Under the pieces are notes generated by a model. That model worked only from the letters and a program-made list of their open reading frames with translations. It ran no database searches and was not told the DNA's origin. The translations under genes were made by a program, and so were the position numbers. Positions 10,250 to 18,398 of a stretch of 21,216 bases of DNA are shown here, piece after piece. How positions within the stretch are numbered: the first letter of the stretch is position 1; each line of letters starts with the position of its first letter. Source of the DNA: a virus; IMG/VR virus record IMGVR_UViG_3300042518_000611, positions 1-21,216 of that record. One strand, given 5' to 3'.

Positions 10250-10567
10250 ATGCCCCAGCGAATCCCAGCCCATAGGCCGCTGCGTCTGCGTTCGTCACGC
10301 CCCAAGCGAGACGATACAGCCAGGCCTAACGCGGCAGCCCGTGGGTATTGCTCAACCGCCTGGTTCAAGATCCGCCAGGCCGTGCTGATCCGAGACGCAT
10401 GGGCATGTCAGGACTGTGGGCGTGTGTGTGCAGACAAGAGGGAAGCCCACGTTGACCACATCACGCCTAAGGCACAGGGCGGGCAGGATGTGATGGAGAA
10501 CCTCAGGACGCTGTGCATCAGGTGCCACGGCAGGAAGACACGGCAGGAGCAGGCAGGGGGAGGGTAG
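10250..10567 (+). CDS. HNH endonuclease
   Basis: This 105-residue protein has the HNH layout. Cys53-x-x-Cys56 and Cys89-x-x-Cys92-His93 form a structural zinc site, His67-Val-Asp-His70 carries the first catalytic histidine pair, and Asn84 is the central Asn of the motif. The N-terminal 30 residues are basic and probably contact DNA, and Trp38-Phe-Lys-Ile-Arg-Gln is the usual helix before the first zinc knuckle. Small HNH nucleases next to terminase genes are known to work with the terminase in cos cleavage and DNA packaging (for example HK97 gp74), which is the likely role here. It starts 3 bases after the preceding stop. A second HNH gene follows within 120 bases. Confidence 0.88.
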   Translation: MPQRIPAHRPLRLRSSRPKRDDTARPNAAARGYCSTAWFKIRQAVLIRDAWACQDCGRVCADKREAHVDHITPKAQGGQDVMENLRTLCIRCHGRKTRQEQAGGG

Positions 10568-10684: not shown

Positions 10685-11452
10685 ATGGCCAAACGCAACG
10701 GTTTCATTATCACCTGCGCAAACGCTGCTTGCCGCAAGCCCTTTTATGTAACGCCCAACCGTTACGCCAAGGGCGCTCGGTGCTGTTCGTGGAAGTGCAG
10801 GGCAGAGCACATGCGACTGCCTAATCGCTTCTGCCAAAACCCAGCATGCGGCAAAAAGATTGAACGACCAGCACAAGGGCCACGCAAAACAGCACTAGGG
10901 CAAGACGGCCGAAAATACTGTTGCCGTGAATGCGCATGGGACCACCGATGGGGCTCGGACAGGCCGCGAAAGAACTGGAGCAAGCAACACCTGGCGTCAG
11001 CCTCTGCTGGAGCTCGTCAAACGTCTCTGCGAAAAAAATGCAAAATCCTTGAAGTGCCGTTTGACGAGCAATGCACCCGCCTCGCTGTGCTTGATCGTGA
11101 CGGCTGGGTATGCCAGCTATGCGACATTAAGTGCAATAGGGAATACGTCATTGACCCAAAGACGCGAAGGCCGGACCCGCGAAACGCAGAACACGACCAT
11201 ATCGTGCCACTTACGGCAGGTGGCAGCCCAGGCAATGTCTTCCCTAACTCGCAGTGTCTATGCCGTAAATGCAACAATAAGAAGCGTGCTCGAAGCATTG
11301 GGCAGCTGCGACTTGACCTAGAAGGGTCGGTGAAACGATGGGAAAACGGGGGCCGAAGCCGACGCCAACAAAACTCAAGATCCTGCGTGGCAACCCAGGC
11401 CGCCGGCCAACCAACAAAAGCGAGCCGCAGCCGGCAACAGATGGCGTTGTAA
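10685..11452 (+). CDS. HNH endonuclease with tandem N-terminal cysteine modules
   Basis: The 255-residue product has three parts. Residues 11-38 (Cys11-x4-Cys16, Cys33/34, Cys38) and 50-83 (Cys50-x4-Cys55, Cys79/80, Cys83) look like two related zinc modules. Residues 143-200 form an HNH domain with Cys143-x-x-Cys146, His170-Asp-His172, Asn184 and Cys193-x-x-Cys196. The last 38 residues overlap the start of the small terminase gene by 115 bases in another frame and look like unconstrained basic sequence. It may be a homing-type nuclease with its own DNA-reading fingers or a packaging partner. TTGACA at 10660-10665 and the start context GCTGCGGTCATG precede it, and it has no clear ribosome binding site. 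Confidence 0.82.
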   Translation: MAKRNGFIITCANAACRKPFYVTPNRYAKGARCCSWKCRAEHMRLPNRFCQNPACGKKIERPAQGPRKTALGQDGRKYCCRECAWDHRWGSDRPRKNWSKQHLASASAGARQTSLRKKCKILEVPFDEQCTRLAVLDRDGWVCQLCDIKCNREYVIDPKTRRPDPRNAEHDHIVPLTAGGSPGNVFPNSQCLCRKCNNKKRARSIGQLRLDLEGSVKRWENGGRSRRQQNSRSCVATQAAGQPTKASRSRQQMAL

Positions 11453-11814
11453 TGCCGCCGCATTTGGGCGAGGTGGCCGCAGCCAAATGGGGCGAGGTGC
11501 TGCCGCTGCTTCAATCGGTCAAGGTGATGACGCGGGCCGACATCGAGGCGTTGGCTCGTTATTGTGACACCTACGAATGGTGGCTTGCCACTCGTGCAAG
11601 ACTCAAAAAGGAAGGCGACACATACCCCATCCTCAACGACAAAGGCGACGTGAAATACATCGCCCAACGCCCAGAGGTGAGCATCGCCCACAAGCTCGCC
11701 GTGCAGCTGCGACAGCTCGAGCAGGATTTTGGGCTGAACCCGAGTGCTAGAACCGGCCTGCATGTCGAAGAGCCGAAGCAAGAAAACGAAGACGACGCCC
11801 GCATGTTCGCTTGA
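11338..11814 (+). CDS. terS: Terminase small subunit (P27-like)
   Basis: The 158-residue protein opens with Met-Gly-Lys-Arg-Gly-Pro-Lys-Pro-Thr-Pro-Thr-Lys-Leu-Lys and Leu-Arg-Gly-Asn-Pro-Gly-Arg-Arg, the diagnostic N-terminus of P27-family small terminase subunits. These bind the packaging site and recruit the large subunit. A helical middle with Ala-Arg-Tyr-Cys-Asp-Thr-Tyr-Glu-Trp-Trp and a C-terminal Leu-Gln-Arg-type helix with Phe-Gly-Leu-Asn-Pro-Ser complete the usual pattern. The ATG at 11338 starts the conserved motif, so the long overlap with the upstream HNH gene (115 bases) is real on this side. The gene overlaps the large subunit by 53 bases. Confidence 0.93.
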   Translation: MGKRGPKPTPTKLKILRGNPGRRPTNKSEPQPATDGVVMPPHLGEVAAAKWGEVLPLLQSVKVMTRADIEALARYCDTYEWWLATRARLKKEGDTYPILNDKGDVKYIAQRPEVSIAHKLAVQLRQLEQDFGLNPSARTGLHVEEPKQENEDDARMFA

Positions 11815-13327
11815 TGCGAAGGCTGCGGACATCGCGGTGCGGTTCTTTGAGGAGAACCTGACGCACGCGAAAGGCGAGCTCGGCGGCAAGGCGTTCCTGC
11901 TCGAGCCGTGGCAGAAGGAATACGTCGGCCGGTTGTTCGGCACGATGAAAAGCGACGTGCGGCAGTACCGCACAAGCCTGCTGGCCATCCCGCGAAAGAA
12001 CGGCAAGAGCACGCTCTGTGCTGGCATCGCCTTGAAGCTCATGTTCGATGGCGAGCCTGGTGCCGAGATCTATTCGTGCGCCGCCGACCGCGACCAGGCC
12101 CGGCTCGTCTTTGAGATGGCGAAGGTCTGCGTTGAGAACTCGCCGAAACTGCGGAGCCGCCTGCGGGTCTTTCGTAACTCGATCGTGCGAGAGGACACGC
12201 ACTCGACATACAAGGCCCTGTCGGCCGAGGCGTTCACGAAGCACGGACTAAACGCTCACGGGATTATCTTCGACGAGCTACACGCCCAGCCCGACCGGGA
12301 ACTGTGGGACGTGATGACCACATCGACAGGTGCCAGGCGTCAGCCCTTGTGCGTGGCGATCACCACGGCTGGCTTCGACAGGAAGAGCATCTGCTGGGAA
12401 ATCTGGCGTTACGCCCTGGCCGTGCGTGACGGTGCGATTAAAGACGCGACCTTCCTGCCTGCGATCTACGCCGCCGATCCCGAGGACGATTGGACGAAGG
12501 AGGCGACCTGGCGCAAGGCGAACCCGAACCTCGGCGTGAGCGTGAAGCTCGATGACCTGCGGGTGCGGTGCAAGCGTGCCCAGGACATGCCGAGCGAAGA
12601 GAACACATTTCGGCGGCTGCACCTGAACCAGTGGACCGAGCAGGATACGCGCTGGCTGCGAATGGAGCACTGGGCACAGGGTAACGAGCCTTGTCCGGTG
12701 ATGCTGGATGGCCGGGAGTGTTTCGCTGGCCTCGACCTCGCCAGCACGTTCGACACGACCTGCTTCTGCCTGCTGTTCCAGCTGGACGATGGCCGGTTCT
12801 GGGTTGAGCCGCATTTCTGGATTCCCGAAACGAACATGCGGGAGCGGGTGAAGCGGGACCGCGTGCCGTATGACCTCTGGCACAAGCAAGGCTTCCTGCA
12901 CACTACGCACGGGAACGTCACCGACTTCGACCAGGTGCGGGCTGACATCATGGCCCTGACGAAGAAATACAACGTGCGGCAGGTGGCGATCGACCGCTGG
13001 AACGCCACTCAGCTGTCGACGCAACTGCAAGGCGATGGGGTAAACGTCTTAGGTTTTGGGCAGGGCTACGGCAGCATGAGTTCCGCCGCCAAGGCCCTTG
13101 AGGCGGCCTGCGTGGGCGGCCGTCTCCTCCACGGCGGTCATCCCGTCCTGGCGTGGCAGGCGTCGAATGTGGCGATACAGAGCGATCACGCGGGCAACAT
13201 TAAGCCGAGCAAGCAGAAATCCAACGAACGGATCGACGGCATCGTGGCCCTGACCATGGCCCTTGGCATTCACGCTACGGCCACGGCCCCGGCACCTGAG
13301 CAGAACTGGGACATCATCTCGTTATGA
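11762..13327 (+). CDS. terL: Terminase large subunit (HK97-like)
   Basis: The ATPase and nuclease that pumps DNA into the prohead. From the ATG at 11762 it has 521 residues; a GTG at 11744 is an alternative start. Ile-Pro-Arg-Lys-Asn-Gly-Lys-Ser-Thr at 76-84 is the Walker A-like motif, Gly-Ile-Ile-Phe-Asp-Glu at 167-172 the Walker B with catalytic Glu172, and Thr-Thr-Ala-Gly at 201-204 the coupling motif. The nuclease domain shows Gly-Leu-Asp325-Leu-Ala, Asp411 after Val-Ala-Ile, and Asp492 near the C-terminus, the three metal-binding acids expected for the RNase H fold. The length is normal and no break is visible. It overlaps the portal gene by 4 bases. Confidence 0.96.
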   Translation: MSKSRSKKTKTTPACSLDAKAADIAVRFFEENLTHAKGELGGKAFLLEPWQKEYVGRLFGTMKSDVRQYRTSLLAIPRKNGKSTLCAGIALKLMFDGEPGAEIYSCAADRDQARLVFEMAKVCVENSPKLRSRLRVFRNSIVREDTHSTYKALSAEAFTKHGLNAHGIIFDELHAQPDRELWDVMTTSTGARRQPLCVAITTAGFDRKSICWEIWRYALAVRDGAIKDATFLPAIYAADPEDDWTKEATWRKANPNLGVSVKLDDLRVRCKRAQDMPSEENTFRRLHLNQWTEQDTRWLRMEHWAQGNEPCPVMLDGRECFAGLDLASTFDTTCFCLLFQLDDGRFWVEPHFWIPETNMRERVKRDRVPYDLWHKQGFLHTTHGNVTDFDQVRADIMALTKKYNVRQVAIDRWNATQLSTQLQGDGVNVLGFGQGYGSMSSAAKALEAACVGGRLLHGGHPVLAWQASNVAIQSDHAGNIKPSKQKSNERIDGIVALTMALGIHATATAPAPEQNWDIISL

Positions 13328-15413: not shown

Positions 15414-15462
15414 TGGCAAGGTGGACTCCATCGGCAATACCGCCGCAGGAGTCTCACCGAAC

Positions 15463-16782
15463 ATGGACAATCTCAAGAAGCTTCAGGACGAGGCCGTTGC
15501 CCTCGCCAACCGGATCGACGCCGTGCGGGCGATCGAGGGCGACGAAGACAAGGTCGCCGAGCGTGACCTGGAGCTCGAGACGCTGAACAAGCGGGCCGGC
15601 GATCTGGCCAAGAAGATCGACTTCGAGAAGTCGGTGGTCGAGTCGGCCAAGAATCTCCGCAGCGTGGTCGAGCGCTGCTCGCCGGCTCCCGAGGTGAAGG
15701 AAGAGCGGAGCGAGAAGGTCCGCGTCGAGGCTGTTCCGTTCTCGGGGCGGCTCCGTGCGTTCGAGAACGCCAAGGACGCCTACTCGGTGGGCATGTGGTT
15801 CAAGGCCAAGAGCGGCGATGCCGAGGCCAAGCGGTGGTGCCAGGATCACGGCGTCGAGGCTCGTGCCCAGGGTTCGACCGGTTCCACGACCGGTGCGGCC
15901 TTCGTGCCTGACGTGCTCTCCTCGACCGTCATCCGCCTGGTCGATCAGTATTCCGCCTTCGCTCAGAACGCCACCAACGTGGTGATGCCGAGCGACGTGC
16001 TCCTGTTCCCGCGTCGGACTGCCGGTGCGACGGCCTACTGGATCAACGAGAACACTGCCATTACCGCCAGCGACCCGACCTCGAACCAGGTCACGCTGAC
16101 GGCGAAGAAGGTTAGTGGTGCGGTGACGATTGCGAGCGAGCTCCTGCAGGACTCCATCGTGTCGATCGCCGACTGGATCGCTGCCGAACTGGCCCTGACG
16201 CTCAGCAACGCCGTCGAAGAGGCTGCGTGGAGCGGCAACCCCAGCAACGCCCCAGCGGTTGCCGGGCTCGTCACGACCTACACGGGCGGCCTGCTGGCGG
16301 CGTCTGCTGCCACCTACGCCGCCTCGCTCGTGACGGCTGCCGGCGACACGCCCGACGAAGTCACGAAGGCGAACCTGCTGGCCATGATGGCCAGGGTTCC
16401 GCAGCACTCGCGTCAGGGTGCCAAGTGGTTCTGCTCGCCGTTCTTCTTCGCCACCTGCATGCAGAACCTCGACCTCGCCCAGGGCGGGTCGGTCGGTCTG
16501 TCGCAGGGCATGGGTCCGACGTTCCTCGGCTCGGAAGTGGTCCTCACCGACCGCCTGCCGGCCGGTGCGGACTCGACGGGTGCGATCATGGCTCTCTACG
16601 GAAACATGGCGAACTCGAGCTACTACGGCATCCGTCAGGCCATCGAGATCGCGTCCAGCGATCAGGTGAACTTCCTGAGCGACCAGACCGTGATCCGTGC
16701 GGTGGCCCGCGTGGCCATCACGCACGCCAACCTGGGCACCGACACCGTCGCCGGCCCGATGATCGGCCTGGTCGGTGCGTGA
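15463..16782 (+). CDS. Major capsid protein (HK97 fold)
   Basis: I choose the ATG at 15463, which has AGGAG at 15447-15451, for a 439-residue product; an in-frame GTG at 15421 would add 14 residues. Residues 1-75 are a charged heptad-like coiled coil (Leu-Gln-Asp-Glu-Ala-Val-Ala-Leu, Arg-Asp-Leu-Glu-Leu-Glu-Thr-Leu), the scaffold-like delta domain expected to be removed by the protease. The mature part starts near the Gly/Ser/Thr-rich stretch at about 135-145 and shows the usual Phe-Val-Pro, Ile-Asn-Glu-Asn and Ser-Gly-Ala-Val-Thr-Ile-Ala-Ser-Glu-Leu-Leu patterns of HK97-type shells. It is followed by a strong hairpin at 16814-16842. Confidence 0.93.
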   Translation: MDNLKKLQDEAVALANRIDAVRAIEGDEDKVAERDLELETLNKRAGDLAKKIDFEKSVVESAKNLRSVVERCSPAPEVKEERSEKVRVEAVPFSGRLRAFENAKDAYSVGMWFKAKSGDAEAKRWCQDHGVEARAQGSTGSTTGAAFVPDVLSSTVIRLVDQYSAFAQNATNVVMPSDVLLFPRRTAGATAYWINENTAITASDPTSNQVTLTAKKVSGAVTIASELLQDSIVSIADWIAAELALTLSNAVEEAAWSGNPSNAPAVAGLVTTYTGGLLAASAATYAASLVTAAGDTPDEVTKANLLAMMARVPQHSRQGAKWFCSPFFFATCMQNLDLAQGGSVGLSQGMGPTFLGSEVVLTDRLPAGADSTGAIMALYGNMANSSYYGIRQAIEIASSDQVNFLSDQTVIRAVARVAITHANLGTDTVAGPMIGLVGA

Positions 16783-16813
16783 GCCTGACGGCTTGACTTG
16801 ATGTGCAAACTGG

Positions 16814-16842
16814 GCGGGCCGCTCCAAACCGGGGCGGCCCGC
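16814..16842 (+). terminator. Strong GC hairpin after the capsid gene (terminator or attenuator)
   Basis: GCGGGCCGC at 16814-16822 pairs perfectly with GCGGCCCGC at 16834-16842, and TCC/GGG extend it inward to 12 bp (one G-U pair) around AAACC. TCTCGTTT follows, a weak T-tract. Being just after the major capsid gene and ahead of a lower-need gene, it would favour capsid mRNA over downstream genes. Confidence 0.7.
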
Positions 16843-16862
16843 TCTCGTTTGCGAGGTTGACA

Positions 16863-17597
16863 ATGCTGGTCAAGGTCGGTGGCACTGAGGCCGACATCCG
16901 GGTGGAAGCCATCCTGTCGATGCCCAGGCTCTCGTTTACGGCCAACCACTTCGCCTGGGCTCAGGCACTCATGCCGCTGGGGATTCGCCCCACGATGGGC
17001 ACTGGTGCGTTCTGGTCGCAGGTGAACACCCGCGTGATGGAGCAATTCATCGACAAAGCGGAATACCTGCTCACGATCGACTACGACACGTTTTTCACGA
17101 AGGAAGACGTGGAGCATCTCTTCGCCCTGGCGATGACGTTCCAGTGTGACGCTATTACTGGGCTGCAGACCAAGCGGGAAGACGGCCGCCCGATGCTGAC
17201 CCTCAAGGGCACGCTGGACAACCCTCCAGAGGGCGGCACTACGAGCCTGCCTATGTCGTGGTTCGCCGAGCCTGTGCAGGAAGTGGACACGGCGCACTTC
17301 GGGTTGACCGTCATCAGCACGGCCGCCCTGAAGCGATGCAAGAAGCCATGGTTCTGGTCGAAGCCCGGCCCTGACGGGTCGTGGAACGACGGCCGTACCG
17401 ATGATGACATCTGGTTCTGGCGCAACTGGCGCGACAGCGGCAACAGGCTTTTCGTCACGCCCCGCGTGGTGCTGGGGCACGGCGAGTACGTGGTGACCTG
17501 GCCGGGCCAGAACCTCGGCAAGCCTGTTTTTCAGTGGACCACGGAGTTTACGACCAACGGAAAGAAGCCCGAAACTGCATGGAGTGTGCCTCAGTGA
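16863..17597 (+). CDS. Putative glycosyltransferase between capsid and connector genes
   Basis: The ATG at 16863, preceded by GAGG at 16853-16856, gives 244 residues; a longer frame from 16803 would start inside the hairpin. Leu-Leu-Thr-Ile-Asp73-Tyr-Asp75-Thr-Phe-Phe carries a DxD motif after a hydrophobic strand, as in GT-A glycosyltransferases. The later Asp-Asp-Asp-Ile-Trp-Phe-Trp and the His-Gly-Glu-Tyr near the C-terminus fit the catalytic and metal-binding regions of that fold. It lies between the capsid protein and the head-tail connectors, so the capsid or another virion protein is the natural acceptor to suspect, a rarer arrangement than lysogenic conversion glycosyltransferases. 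Donor sugar and target are unknown. The next gene overlaps its stop by 4 bases. Confidence 0.6.
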   Translation: MLVKVGGTEADIRVEAILSMPRLSFTANHFAWAQALMPLGIRPTMGTGAFWSQVNTRVMEQFIDKAEYLLTIDYDTFFTKEDVEHLFALAMTFQCDAITGLQTKREDGRPMLTLKGTLDNPPEGGTTSLPMSWFAEPVQEVDTAHFGLTVISTAALKRCKKPWFWSKPGPDGSWNDGRTDDDIWFWRNWRDSGNRLFVTPRVVLGHGEYVVTWPGQNLGKPVFQWTTEFTTNGKKPETAWSVPQ

Positions 17598-17833
17598 AGA
17601 AAATCACATTTACCCGCGCGTGGCGTGCCTACCGCAAAGGGCAGTCTGTCGAGATGACGGGCGGGCTGGCGACGCAGCTGGTGGCCCAGGGCGTGGCCAT
17701 AGAAGACCGGCAGCAGGATCTGATCGAGACCGCAGCGATTGAGACGGCTGCCGAGACGGCCGACGCCACCCCGAGAAAACGAGGACGCCGTGCAGTACCG
17801 AAGCCTGACTCGCCAGACACCGCCAGCCGTTGA
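17594..17833 (+). CDS. Small hypothetical protein in the head-tail region
   Basis: The GTG at 17594 overlaps the glycosyltransferase stop (GTGA) and gives 79 residues; an ATG at 17579 is a possible longer start. The first 45 residues look like a small beta-rich fold (Lys-Lys-Ile-Thr-Phe, Ala-Tyr-Arg-Lys-Gly-Gln-Ser-Val-Glu-Met), similar in size and pattern to short proteins that sit before gp6-like connectors in HK97-type phages. The remainder is an Ala, Thr and Glu-rich stretch followed by a basic Lys/Arg-Pro tail. It overlaps the connector gene by 44 bases, so the tail may be little constrained. Confidence 0.55.
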   Translation: MKKITFTRAWRAYRKGQSVEMTGGLATQLVAQGVAIEDRQQDLIETAAIETAAETADATPRKRGRRAVPKPDSPDTASR

Positions 17834-18398
17834 GCCCGTCACGCTGAGCGAGGCCAAGGCTCATCTGCGTGTCGATACCACGACCGACGATGCCTACATC
17901 GGCTCCCTCATCACGGCGGCCCGTGAGTGGTGCGAGCAGTACCTGGATCGCACGCTGGTTCACACCCAGTGGGTCATGCGGTTCGACAGGTTCCCACCGG
18001 ACGGCACGCACGACATCGAACTGCCACGCCCGCCAATGGCCTCGGCTGGCACAGTGACGGCGGAGGCCCTGACGTTCACGTTTGAGAACGGCACCACCTC
18101 GACCTACTCGACCGCCAGTTACCGCGTGGATCGGGACGGCGTGCCGGGCACCGTGAAGACGCTGTATGGCCAGACGTGGCCGCCGCACCTGCAGGACGAT
18201 AACGCCATCAGCGTGACCTGGTGGGCCGGCTACGGGGCCAGCGGTACGAGTGTGCCTGCTGCGATCCGCCACGCCATGCTCATGCTTGTGGGCATGTGGT
18301 ACGAGCGACGCATGGCGGCCGACTCAATGGGCGGTGACGAGATCCCGTTTGGCGTGAAGTCGCTGCTCGACTCCCAGCGTTGGGGATCCTACCGATGA
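17790..18398 (+). CDS. Head-tail connector protein (gp6-like)
   Basis: From the GTG at 17790 (GAGG at 17781-17784) the protein has 202 residues. The opening Pro-Val-Thr-Leu-Ser-Glu-Ala-Lys-Ala-His-Leu-Arg-Val-Asp followed by Asp-Asp-Ala-Tyr-Ile-Gly-Ser-Leu-Ile-Thr-Ala-Ala-Arg-Glu-Trp-Cys-Glu is the hallmark of HK97 gp6-like connectors. These form the ring joining the portal to the head-closure protein. The C-terminal helix Ala-Ile-Arg-His-Ala-Met-Leu-Met-Leu-Val-Gly also fits. A longer frame from 17739 would start inside the previous gene and adds only basic residues. Confidence 0.9.
   Translation: MQYRSLTRQTPPAVEPVTLSEAKAHLRVDTTTDDAYIGSLITAAREWCEQYLDRTLVHTQWVMRFDRFPPDGTHDIELPRPPMASAGTVTAEALTFTFENGTTSTYSTASYRVDRDGVPGTVKTLYGQTWPPHLQDDNAISVTWWAGYGASGTSVPAAIRHAMLMLVGMWYERRMAADSMGGDEIPFGVKSLLDSQRWGSYR

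Follow-up and report, generated by a model that had tools for sequence, protein, structure and literature searches.

A GT-A-fold glycosyltransferase gene fixed in the head module of an uncultured phage group, and a family of hairpin inserts that ribosomes may bypass

An abundant group of phages, most of them uncultured, carries a predicted glycosyltransferase of the GT-A fold as a fixed head-block gene, and in some members this gene and the large terminase gene are interrupted by hairpin elements of about 50 nt that ribosomes probably hop over. Taken together, the glycosyltransferase reading and bypass of the elements probably provide the best explanation of the data. The window, the whole stretch of DNA that was analyzed, comprises 21,216 nt (positions 1 to 21,216 of IMG/VR virus record IMGVR_UViG_3300042518_000611). 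A sequence-only reading of it had singled out an ORF at 16863–17597 with the motif Asp73-Tyr-Asp75, both of which are real and read from the sequence as described. The features that concern us are the following.

11744–13327, + strand: large terminase gene, uninterrupted in the window
15421–16782, + strand: HK97-type major capsid protein gene (Pfam Phage_capsid, 8.5e-34; PHROG major head protein)
16812–16844, + strand: G+C-rich inverted repeat in the gap between the capsid and glycosyltransferase genes; similar repeats occupy the same place in relatives
16863–17597, + strand: GT-A-fold glycosyltransferase gene, 244 aa (ATG at 16863, TGA at 17595–17597)
17013–17016, + strand: empty insertion site after Trp51 (TGG codon at 17013–17015), at which 18 IMG/VR contigs carry a 50-nt hairpin
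17079–17087, + strand: Asp73-Tyr-Asp75, DxD-type metal/nucleotide-sugar motif; D73 and D75 are invariant in 59 orthologues
17400–17408, + strand: Asp180-Asp181-Asp182, candidate catalytic acidic (xED-like) motif by analogy with GT-A enzymes; D180 and D182 are invariant
17478–17480, + strand: His206, invariant, putative C-terminal metal-binding His
17594–17833, + strand: small gene of 78–79 aa, 3′ of the glycosyltransferase gene, no function assigned
17739–18398, + strand: gp6-like head-tail connector gene (PF05135, 2e-13); the actual start probably lies downstream of that of the ORF

The gene order in the window is thus major capsid, glycosyltransferase, small gene, head-tail connector, and head closure (PHROG 25), the last lying downstream of the connector gene. 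The position between the capsid gene and the connectors, as first proposed, is correct with the amendment that one small gene also precedes the connectors. Elsewhere in the window, two more glycosyltransferase-like ORFs (1076–1702 and 1666–2592) give weak matches to Pfam Glyco_transf_34 and Glyco_tranf_2_4, the first of them having no match among 10 related contigs, and two HNH-like ORFs (10250–10567 and 10685–11452) lie immediately 5′ of the terminase genes.

The identity of the protein is revealed by its predicted structure. Pfam, NCBIfam, and PDB sequence searches with the glycosyltransferase protein returned nothing, tblastn against named phages returned chance-level matches only (one annotated "has synthase" at 25%), and the sole sequence-family match is a weak one to PHROG 1574, a family with no assigned function (2.4e-6, residues 65–213). 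An AlphaFold model built from an alignment of 59 intact orthologues has a pLDDT of 89.1 and a pTM of 0.89 (pLDDT 32 for a single-sequence model). The closest solved structure is that of STIV A197, a GT-A enzyme (PDB 2c0n; Foldseek E 7.9e-9, VIA Z 17.4), which superposes with an rmsd of 2.8 over 175 residues; further VIA matches are human LH3 (Z 15.8), mimivirus R699 (Z 14.7), and human COLGALT1 (Z 13.9), and a library of viral structures yields many matches annotated GT-A/GT2, including phage and giant-virus glycosyltransferases. In the model, the D73/D75 motif ends the core strand 68–73, and D73, D75, G147, D180, D182, and H206 do not vary among the 59 aligned orthologues. Because of these structural matches and invariant residues, the assignment is near certain at the level of the fold. 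A capsid acceptor is a reasonable inference. The glycosyltransferase call of the sequence-only reading, which a structural model of another kind was to refute, is well supported: the predicted fold is of the GT-A type, the top structural matches of the model are GT-A enzymes, and the residues typical of the type are invariant. The protein is very probably a GT-A glycosyltransferase, with the proviso that a GT-A fold by itself is no proof of activity and that enzyme activity is predicted from the model.

The gene is conserved. At least about 600 IMG/VR stretches match it in a scan confirmed by tblastn, the best 80 of these at 87–100% identity. Relatives were also gathered by their portal protein, to avoid selecting on the glycosyltransferase gene itself, and all 42 portal-selected loci with more than 3.2 kb past the portal gene have the glycosyltransferase gene between the capsid gene and the small gene, at 67–100% identity. 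These 42 loci are not distant relatives, since their portal proteins are 90–100% identical. A divergent lineage (L161/L164; identities of 48% for terminase, 44% for portal, and 36% for capsid protein) keeps the gene, as does a Planctomycetota MAG contig (L222) in its head module; in both, one extra gene separates the capsid and glycosyltransferase genes. The extra gene, of about 145 aa, belongs to PHROG 5707 (function not assigned; L161 5969–6406, L063, and L222 3132–3608) and perhaps encodes a decoration protein. In some relatives a variable gene of about 140 aa with no clear family lies between the connector and head closure genes (L171 7164–7583). As to the host, a search of 392 Planctomycetota genomes gave no strong match besides the one MAG contig. 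The gene had originally been viewed as an unusual insertion at a place normally held by small head genes; it is instead the standard occupant of that place, and its presence in 42 of 42 portal-selected loci rules out a rare insertion.

What the enzyme glycosylates is less firmly indicated. The gene would encode a small cytoplasmic GT-A-fold glycosyltransferase, produced along with the late head genes, that most likely takes its sugar from a nucleotide-sugar of the host and attaches it to a protein of the virion, the adjoining major capsid protein being the first candidate for an acceptor. Capsid glycosylation by the window enzyme is plausible and consistent with the constant place beside the capsid gene and, by analogy, with STIV A197 as the closest fold; that the enzyme acts on a head protein has, in our estimate, about an even chance. 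Less probable, and still a serious alternative, is that the enzyme modifies a protein of the tail or fibres, the DNA of the phage, or a glycan on the host surface and that the position only reflects late expression. Many phage glycosyltransferases act on such targets, the sequence cannot tell the acceptor, and the window holds the two additional glycosyltransferase-like genes with weak Pfam matches (1076–2592). Against this, the capsid-connector position is constant in 42 of 42 loci and persists where terminase, portal, and capsid proteins are only 36–48% identical, and among the nearest folds are two enzymes that glycosylate proteins, LH3 and COLGALT1, although likeness of fold does not settle the acceptor. 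LH3 and COLGALT1, both of which act on proteins, and mimivirus R699 share the GT-A fold with the window protein (Z about 14–16) but are only 8–15% identical to it and far larger.

The window protein resembles STIV A197 in its minimal GT-A fold and in being virus-encoded. The two differ in that they are 14% identical, that STIV is an archaeal, non-tailed virus, and that the window gene, in a tailed phage of the HK97 type, is locked between the genes for capsid and connector. The STIV capsid protein is glycosylated, and A197 is essential and may be the enzyme responsible, with the acceptor not proven (PMC10551542). Among mycobacteriophages, phage-encoded glycosyltransferases and glycans on the major capsid protein are reported for Che8 and Rita (cluster F1; cited in PMC11256854). 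The glycosyltransferase genes of the F1 phage Maravista are located toward the genome's 3′ end (PMC11256854), whereas the window gene lies in the head block.

In two of the portal-selected relatives (L118 and L100), the glycosyltransferase gene is split over two frames. DNA alignment places an insert of exactly 50 bases, GGTTGAGCCCYCTGGCTAAAYGCYRGGGGGCTCAACCCYAGRACAAATGS, directly behind the Trp51 codon; the second codon of the insert is an in-frame TGA. A search of the whole IMG/VR collection with the hairpin pattern found 18 contigs, all with the insert at the Trp51 codon of the glycosyltransferase gene, and a pattern search for other inserts of 35–63 nt at the same codon and with the same flanks gave only these 18. 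The insert-bearing orthologues (L118, L100, L156–L173, and L380) hold elements of 50–51 nt with an in-frame stop, and an RNA covariance model found a third glycosyltransferase insert variant with a different flank. The 18 interrupted alleles are as different as 70% at the DNA level. The carriers are near-identical over about 33 bases before and 12 bases after the insert, unlike intact alleles, while the rest of the gene diverges, as after co-conversion or as if the flanks worked together with the element; flank and element are predicted to fold together (z −7 to −9). The downstream halves have dN/dS values of 0–0.2, as in intact alleles. Diverged alleles share identical elements, which points to a recent spread, so that this conservation of the downstream frame is weaker evidence of long-term function for the glycosyltransferase than for the terminase. 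The window's own glycosyltransferase and terminase genes carry no element.

The terminase inserts were found by a split-frame search of the collected loci, in which the gene was first seen broken by 50 or 47 bases, by two scans of the collection, and by comparison with intact homologues. Numbered on the intact TerL of relatives, two sites, T175 and T185, flank the FDELHAQ motif, and a third, T194, lies at RRLW^DAL; with T303 these make four sites near window codons 169, 179, 188, and 291. A fifth site, that of L311, lies in the Walker A region. Element lengths are 50 nt at T175 and T185, 50, 51, or 52 nt at T194, 47 nt at T303, and 51 nt in L311. A terminase element is present in 14 of the 70 portal-selected loci that cover that part of the gene. 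Elements are seen in the terminase genes of L129, L122, L100, L058, L090, L083, L084, L086, L087, L068, L017, L113, L114, L148, L150, and L311, and in matches from the collection scans. Two elements occur within one terminase gene in L328, and L100 and the contig of L380/L366 each combine one terminase element with one glycosyltransferase element. The apparent start of an intein, LAIDTPIPTPDGWKTMGDLKVGDFVF, lies just 3′ of the hairpin insert in the L311 terminase (contig IMGVR_UViG_3300016263_000623).

The TerL sequence on both sides of many inserts is 95–99% identical to the intact TerL of relatives, and 3′ of the insert the frame is open for 234–362 codons in all carriers tested, save for the T175 reading of L328, which stops at the second element of that gene. 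Median dN/dS values downstream of the insert, computed on protein-guided alignments, are 0.14 for T194, 0.30 for T175, and 0.17 for T303.

All of these inserts belong to one element family with lengths of 47–52 nt, 50 nt being the commonest, and every element breaks the frame or carries a stop, including the 51-nt in-frame elements, all of which hold an in-frame stop. Double-sided compensation is seen at 12 of 19 stem pairs. On the sense strand the stems contain 606 Watson-Crick, 111 G.T, and 0 A.C pairs, a count that is only indicative because the stem finder favors G.T and the elements are related. Since the stems keep their pairing by compensation, with many G.U and no A.C pairs, the selected entity is a hairpin in the mRNA; the covariance model likewise gives much higher scores on the sense strand than on the antisense strand. 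In about 2.1 Mb of collected sequence, strong covariance-model matches fall at six sites, in the glycosyltransferase and terminase genes, and low-scoring hairpin matches occur outside both genes (L305, L331, L341, L343, L345, and others). A blind ranking of the strongest hairpins across all loci also puts the glycosyltransferase and terminase elements on top. Comparison of the glycosyltransferase cassette and two terminase cassettes with named phages, and of the glycosyltransferase cassette with plasmids, gave no match, and Planctomycetota genomes searched for the elements gave weak matches only.

The codons that border the elements are usually matched. The codon that precedes the insert and the one that ends it read CTG/CTG at T175 (in one case CTA) and at T185, CGG/CGG at T303 (in one case CGA), and CCG/CCG in L311. 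The glycosyltransferase pair is TGG/TGG or TGG/TGC, variants A and C having TGG/TGC, which agree in two of three bases. Over these five sites (the glycosyltransferase site, T175, T185, T303, and L311), the first two bases are equal in all 18 distinct elements and all three in 13. The outer codons at T194 show no match. In 18 of 20 elements an inner pair is present there: a GGC at the tip of the hairpin, with TGA or CGA after it, and a GGN codon that stands four codons ahead of the end and in the downstream frame whether the element has 50, 51, or 52 nt. This take-off/landing pair was picked after the fact, and the tail pairs with the upstream exon too. In L327 a co-varying AGC/AGA pair replaces GGC/GGN; the misfits are L378, which has GAG, and L346, in which a TGA lies between the landing codon and the terminase frame. 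If GGC is the take-off codon, many T194 elements have a stop right after it; in the glycosyltransferase elements the TGA is one codon later, and at the other sites a stop is absent or later still.

That the elements are skipped or removed during expression seems highly probable from the sequences, and skipping by ribosome bypass is the probable route. The mRNA of the element would form a strong stem with the codon before the insert in its base, as in the predicted folds of the take-off stem-loop; the ribosome would leave the mRNA at this stem and resume on a codon that matches, located at the element's end or close to it, and two disjointed frames would be joined into one protein, as in T4 gene 60. 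Because of the codon matches around the elements, we consider bypass the best explanation, with RNA excision as its main rival.

Excision from the mRNA, whether of a tiny intron-like element or by nuclease and ligase processing, with no ribosome skipping, has perhaps one chance in four. It fits all lengths from 47 to 52 nt and would restore the uninterrupted protein exactly wherever an element lies, also at T194; insertion into conserved motifs (the DELHAQ region and Walker A) is typical of self-removing elements, and the element-bearing TerL of L311 appears to contain an intein too. The six element-bearing loci searched against Rfam at the gathering score, however, gave no family match, the junctions in the predicted folds have no visible bulge-helix-bulge motif, and splicing does not need matched codons that differ mainly at third positions. 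All self-splicing introns known to us are far longer than 47–52 nt.

Much less probable is stop readthrough or a single frameshift that adds about 17 residues, or the separate synthesis of two halves that then associate. The 51-nt elements are in frame apart from their stops, and on the L118/L172 contig the −1 frame is open through the element. Yet neither readthrough nor a frameshift can serve elements of 47, 50, 51, and 52 nt jointly, and other 50-nt glycosyltransferase elements have a TAG in the −1 frame. A separate C-terminal half was rejected for L161-type alleles: as no ATG, GTG, or TTG start lies between the element and the DxD motif, such a piece would lack the DxD motif. Least probable of all is that the elements are inactivating palindromic mobile insertions and the split genes dead, for although each insert breaks the frame or adds a stop and mobility is suggested by the several sites, the identical copies in diverged alleles, and the shared flanks beside the insert, the terminase is essential and yet interrupted in many separate metagenome assemblies with open frames and dN/dS of 0.14–0.30, hairpin pairing is kept with a sense-strand G.U signature, and the strong matches are confined to six sites in two genes.

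Ribosome bypass of these elements would be reminiscent of T4 gene 60, in which ribosomes pass over 50 nt that separate codons 46 and 47: they leave the mRNA at a GGA, followed by UAG, and land on a matching GGA with the help of a take-off stem-loop and of a short, weak Shine-Dalgarno-like sequence before the landing site (PMC5009743, PMC11194080). Shared with gene 60 are disjoint coding segments, a gap that breaks the frame or holds a stop, a stem-loop that includes the take-off codon, the 50-nt length as the commonest, and, at T194, a GGC followed by TGA with a GGC landing candidate. The present elements differ from gene 60 in occupying several sites in two genes and in their long, near-perfect hairpins and lengths of 47–52 nt; no sequence relation to gene 60 has been shown, and no homing endonuclease gene of the HNH type was found beside the glycosyltransferase. 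In element carriers, HNH matches lie elsewhere on the contigs, and no HNH gene adjoins the glycosyltransferase gene. In the mitochondrial bypass of Magnusiomyces, there are several inserts per genome and imperfect matches are tolerated (PMC5009743), as would be the case here, with the difference that mitochondrial ribosomes carry it out. The same source describes a proposed bypass in the terminase gene of Streptomyces phage Hau3 (PMC5009743); the gene affected is the same, but the Hau3 gap is much shorter and tied to a UUA codon. The 3-base repeats at the ends of the inserts could be target-site duplications. On the sequence evidence we lean slightly toward a mobile family of hairpins of about 50 nt in essential virion genes over which ribosomes hop, a widespread and transmissible phage trait.

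The glycosyltransferase itself adds to the GT-A enzymes a new member that is fixed in the head module and has a probable virion substrate, and is otherwise mostly ordinary. As the gene is fixed in the head module of a very common phage group, virion glycosylation, if true, would be a standing trait of the lineage, and the enzyme offers a clear case for testing alongside those of STIV and the mycobacteriophages. Of greater importance than the glycosyltransferase are the hairpin inserts, being unexpected and interrupting phage genes that are still under selection. To our knowledge, work on efficient bypassing in bacteria has dealt essentially with a single gene, T4 gene 60. With their natural sequence variants, intact sister genes, and several sites, one of which has three element lengths, the inserts make up a panel for testing what hopping demands of a ribosome. 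If the mRNA is processed, they would stand for an RNA-removal element of very small size; if the reading as mobile, bypassed elements is true, programmed bypassing would be widespread in phages and not an oddity of T4 gene 60.
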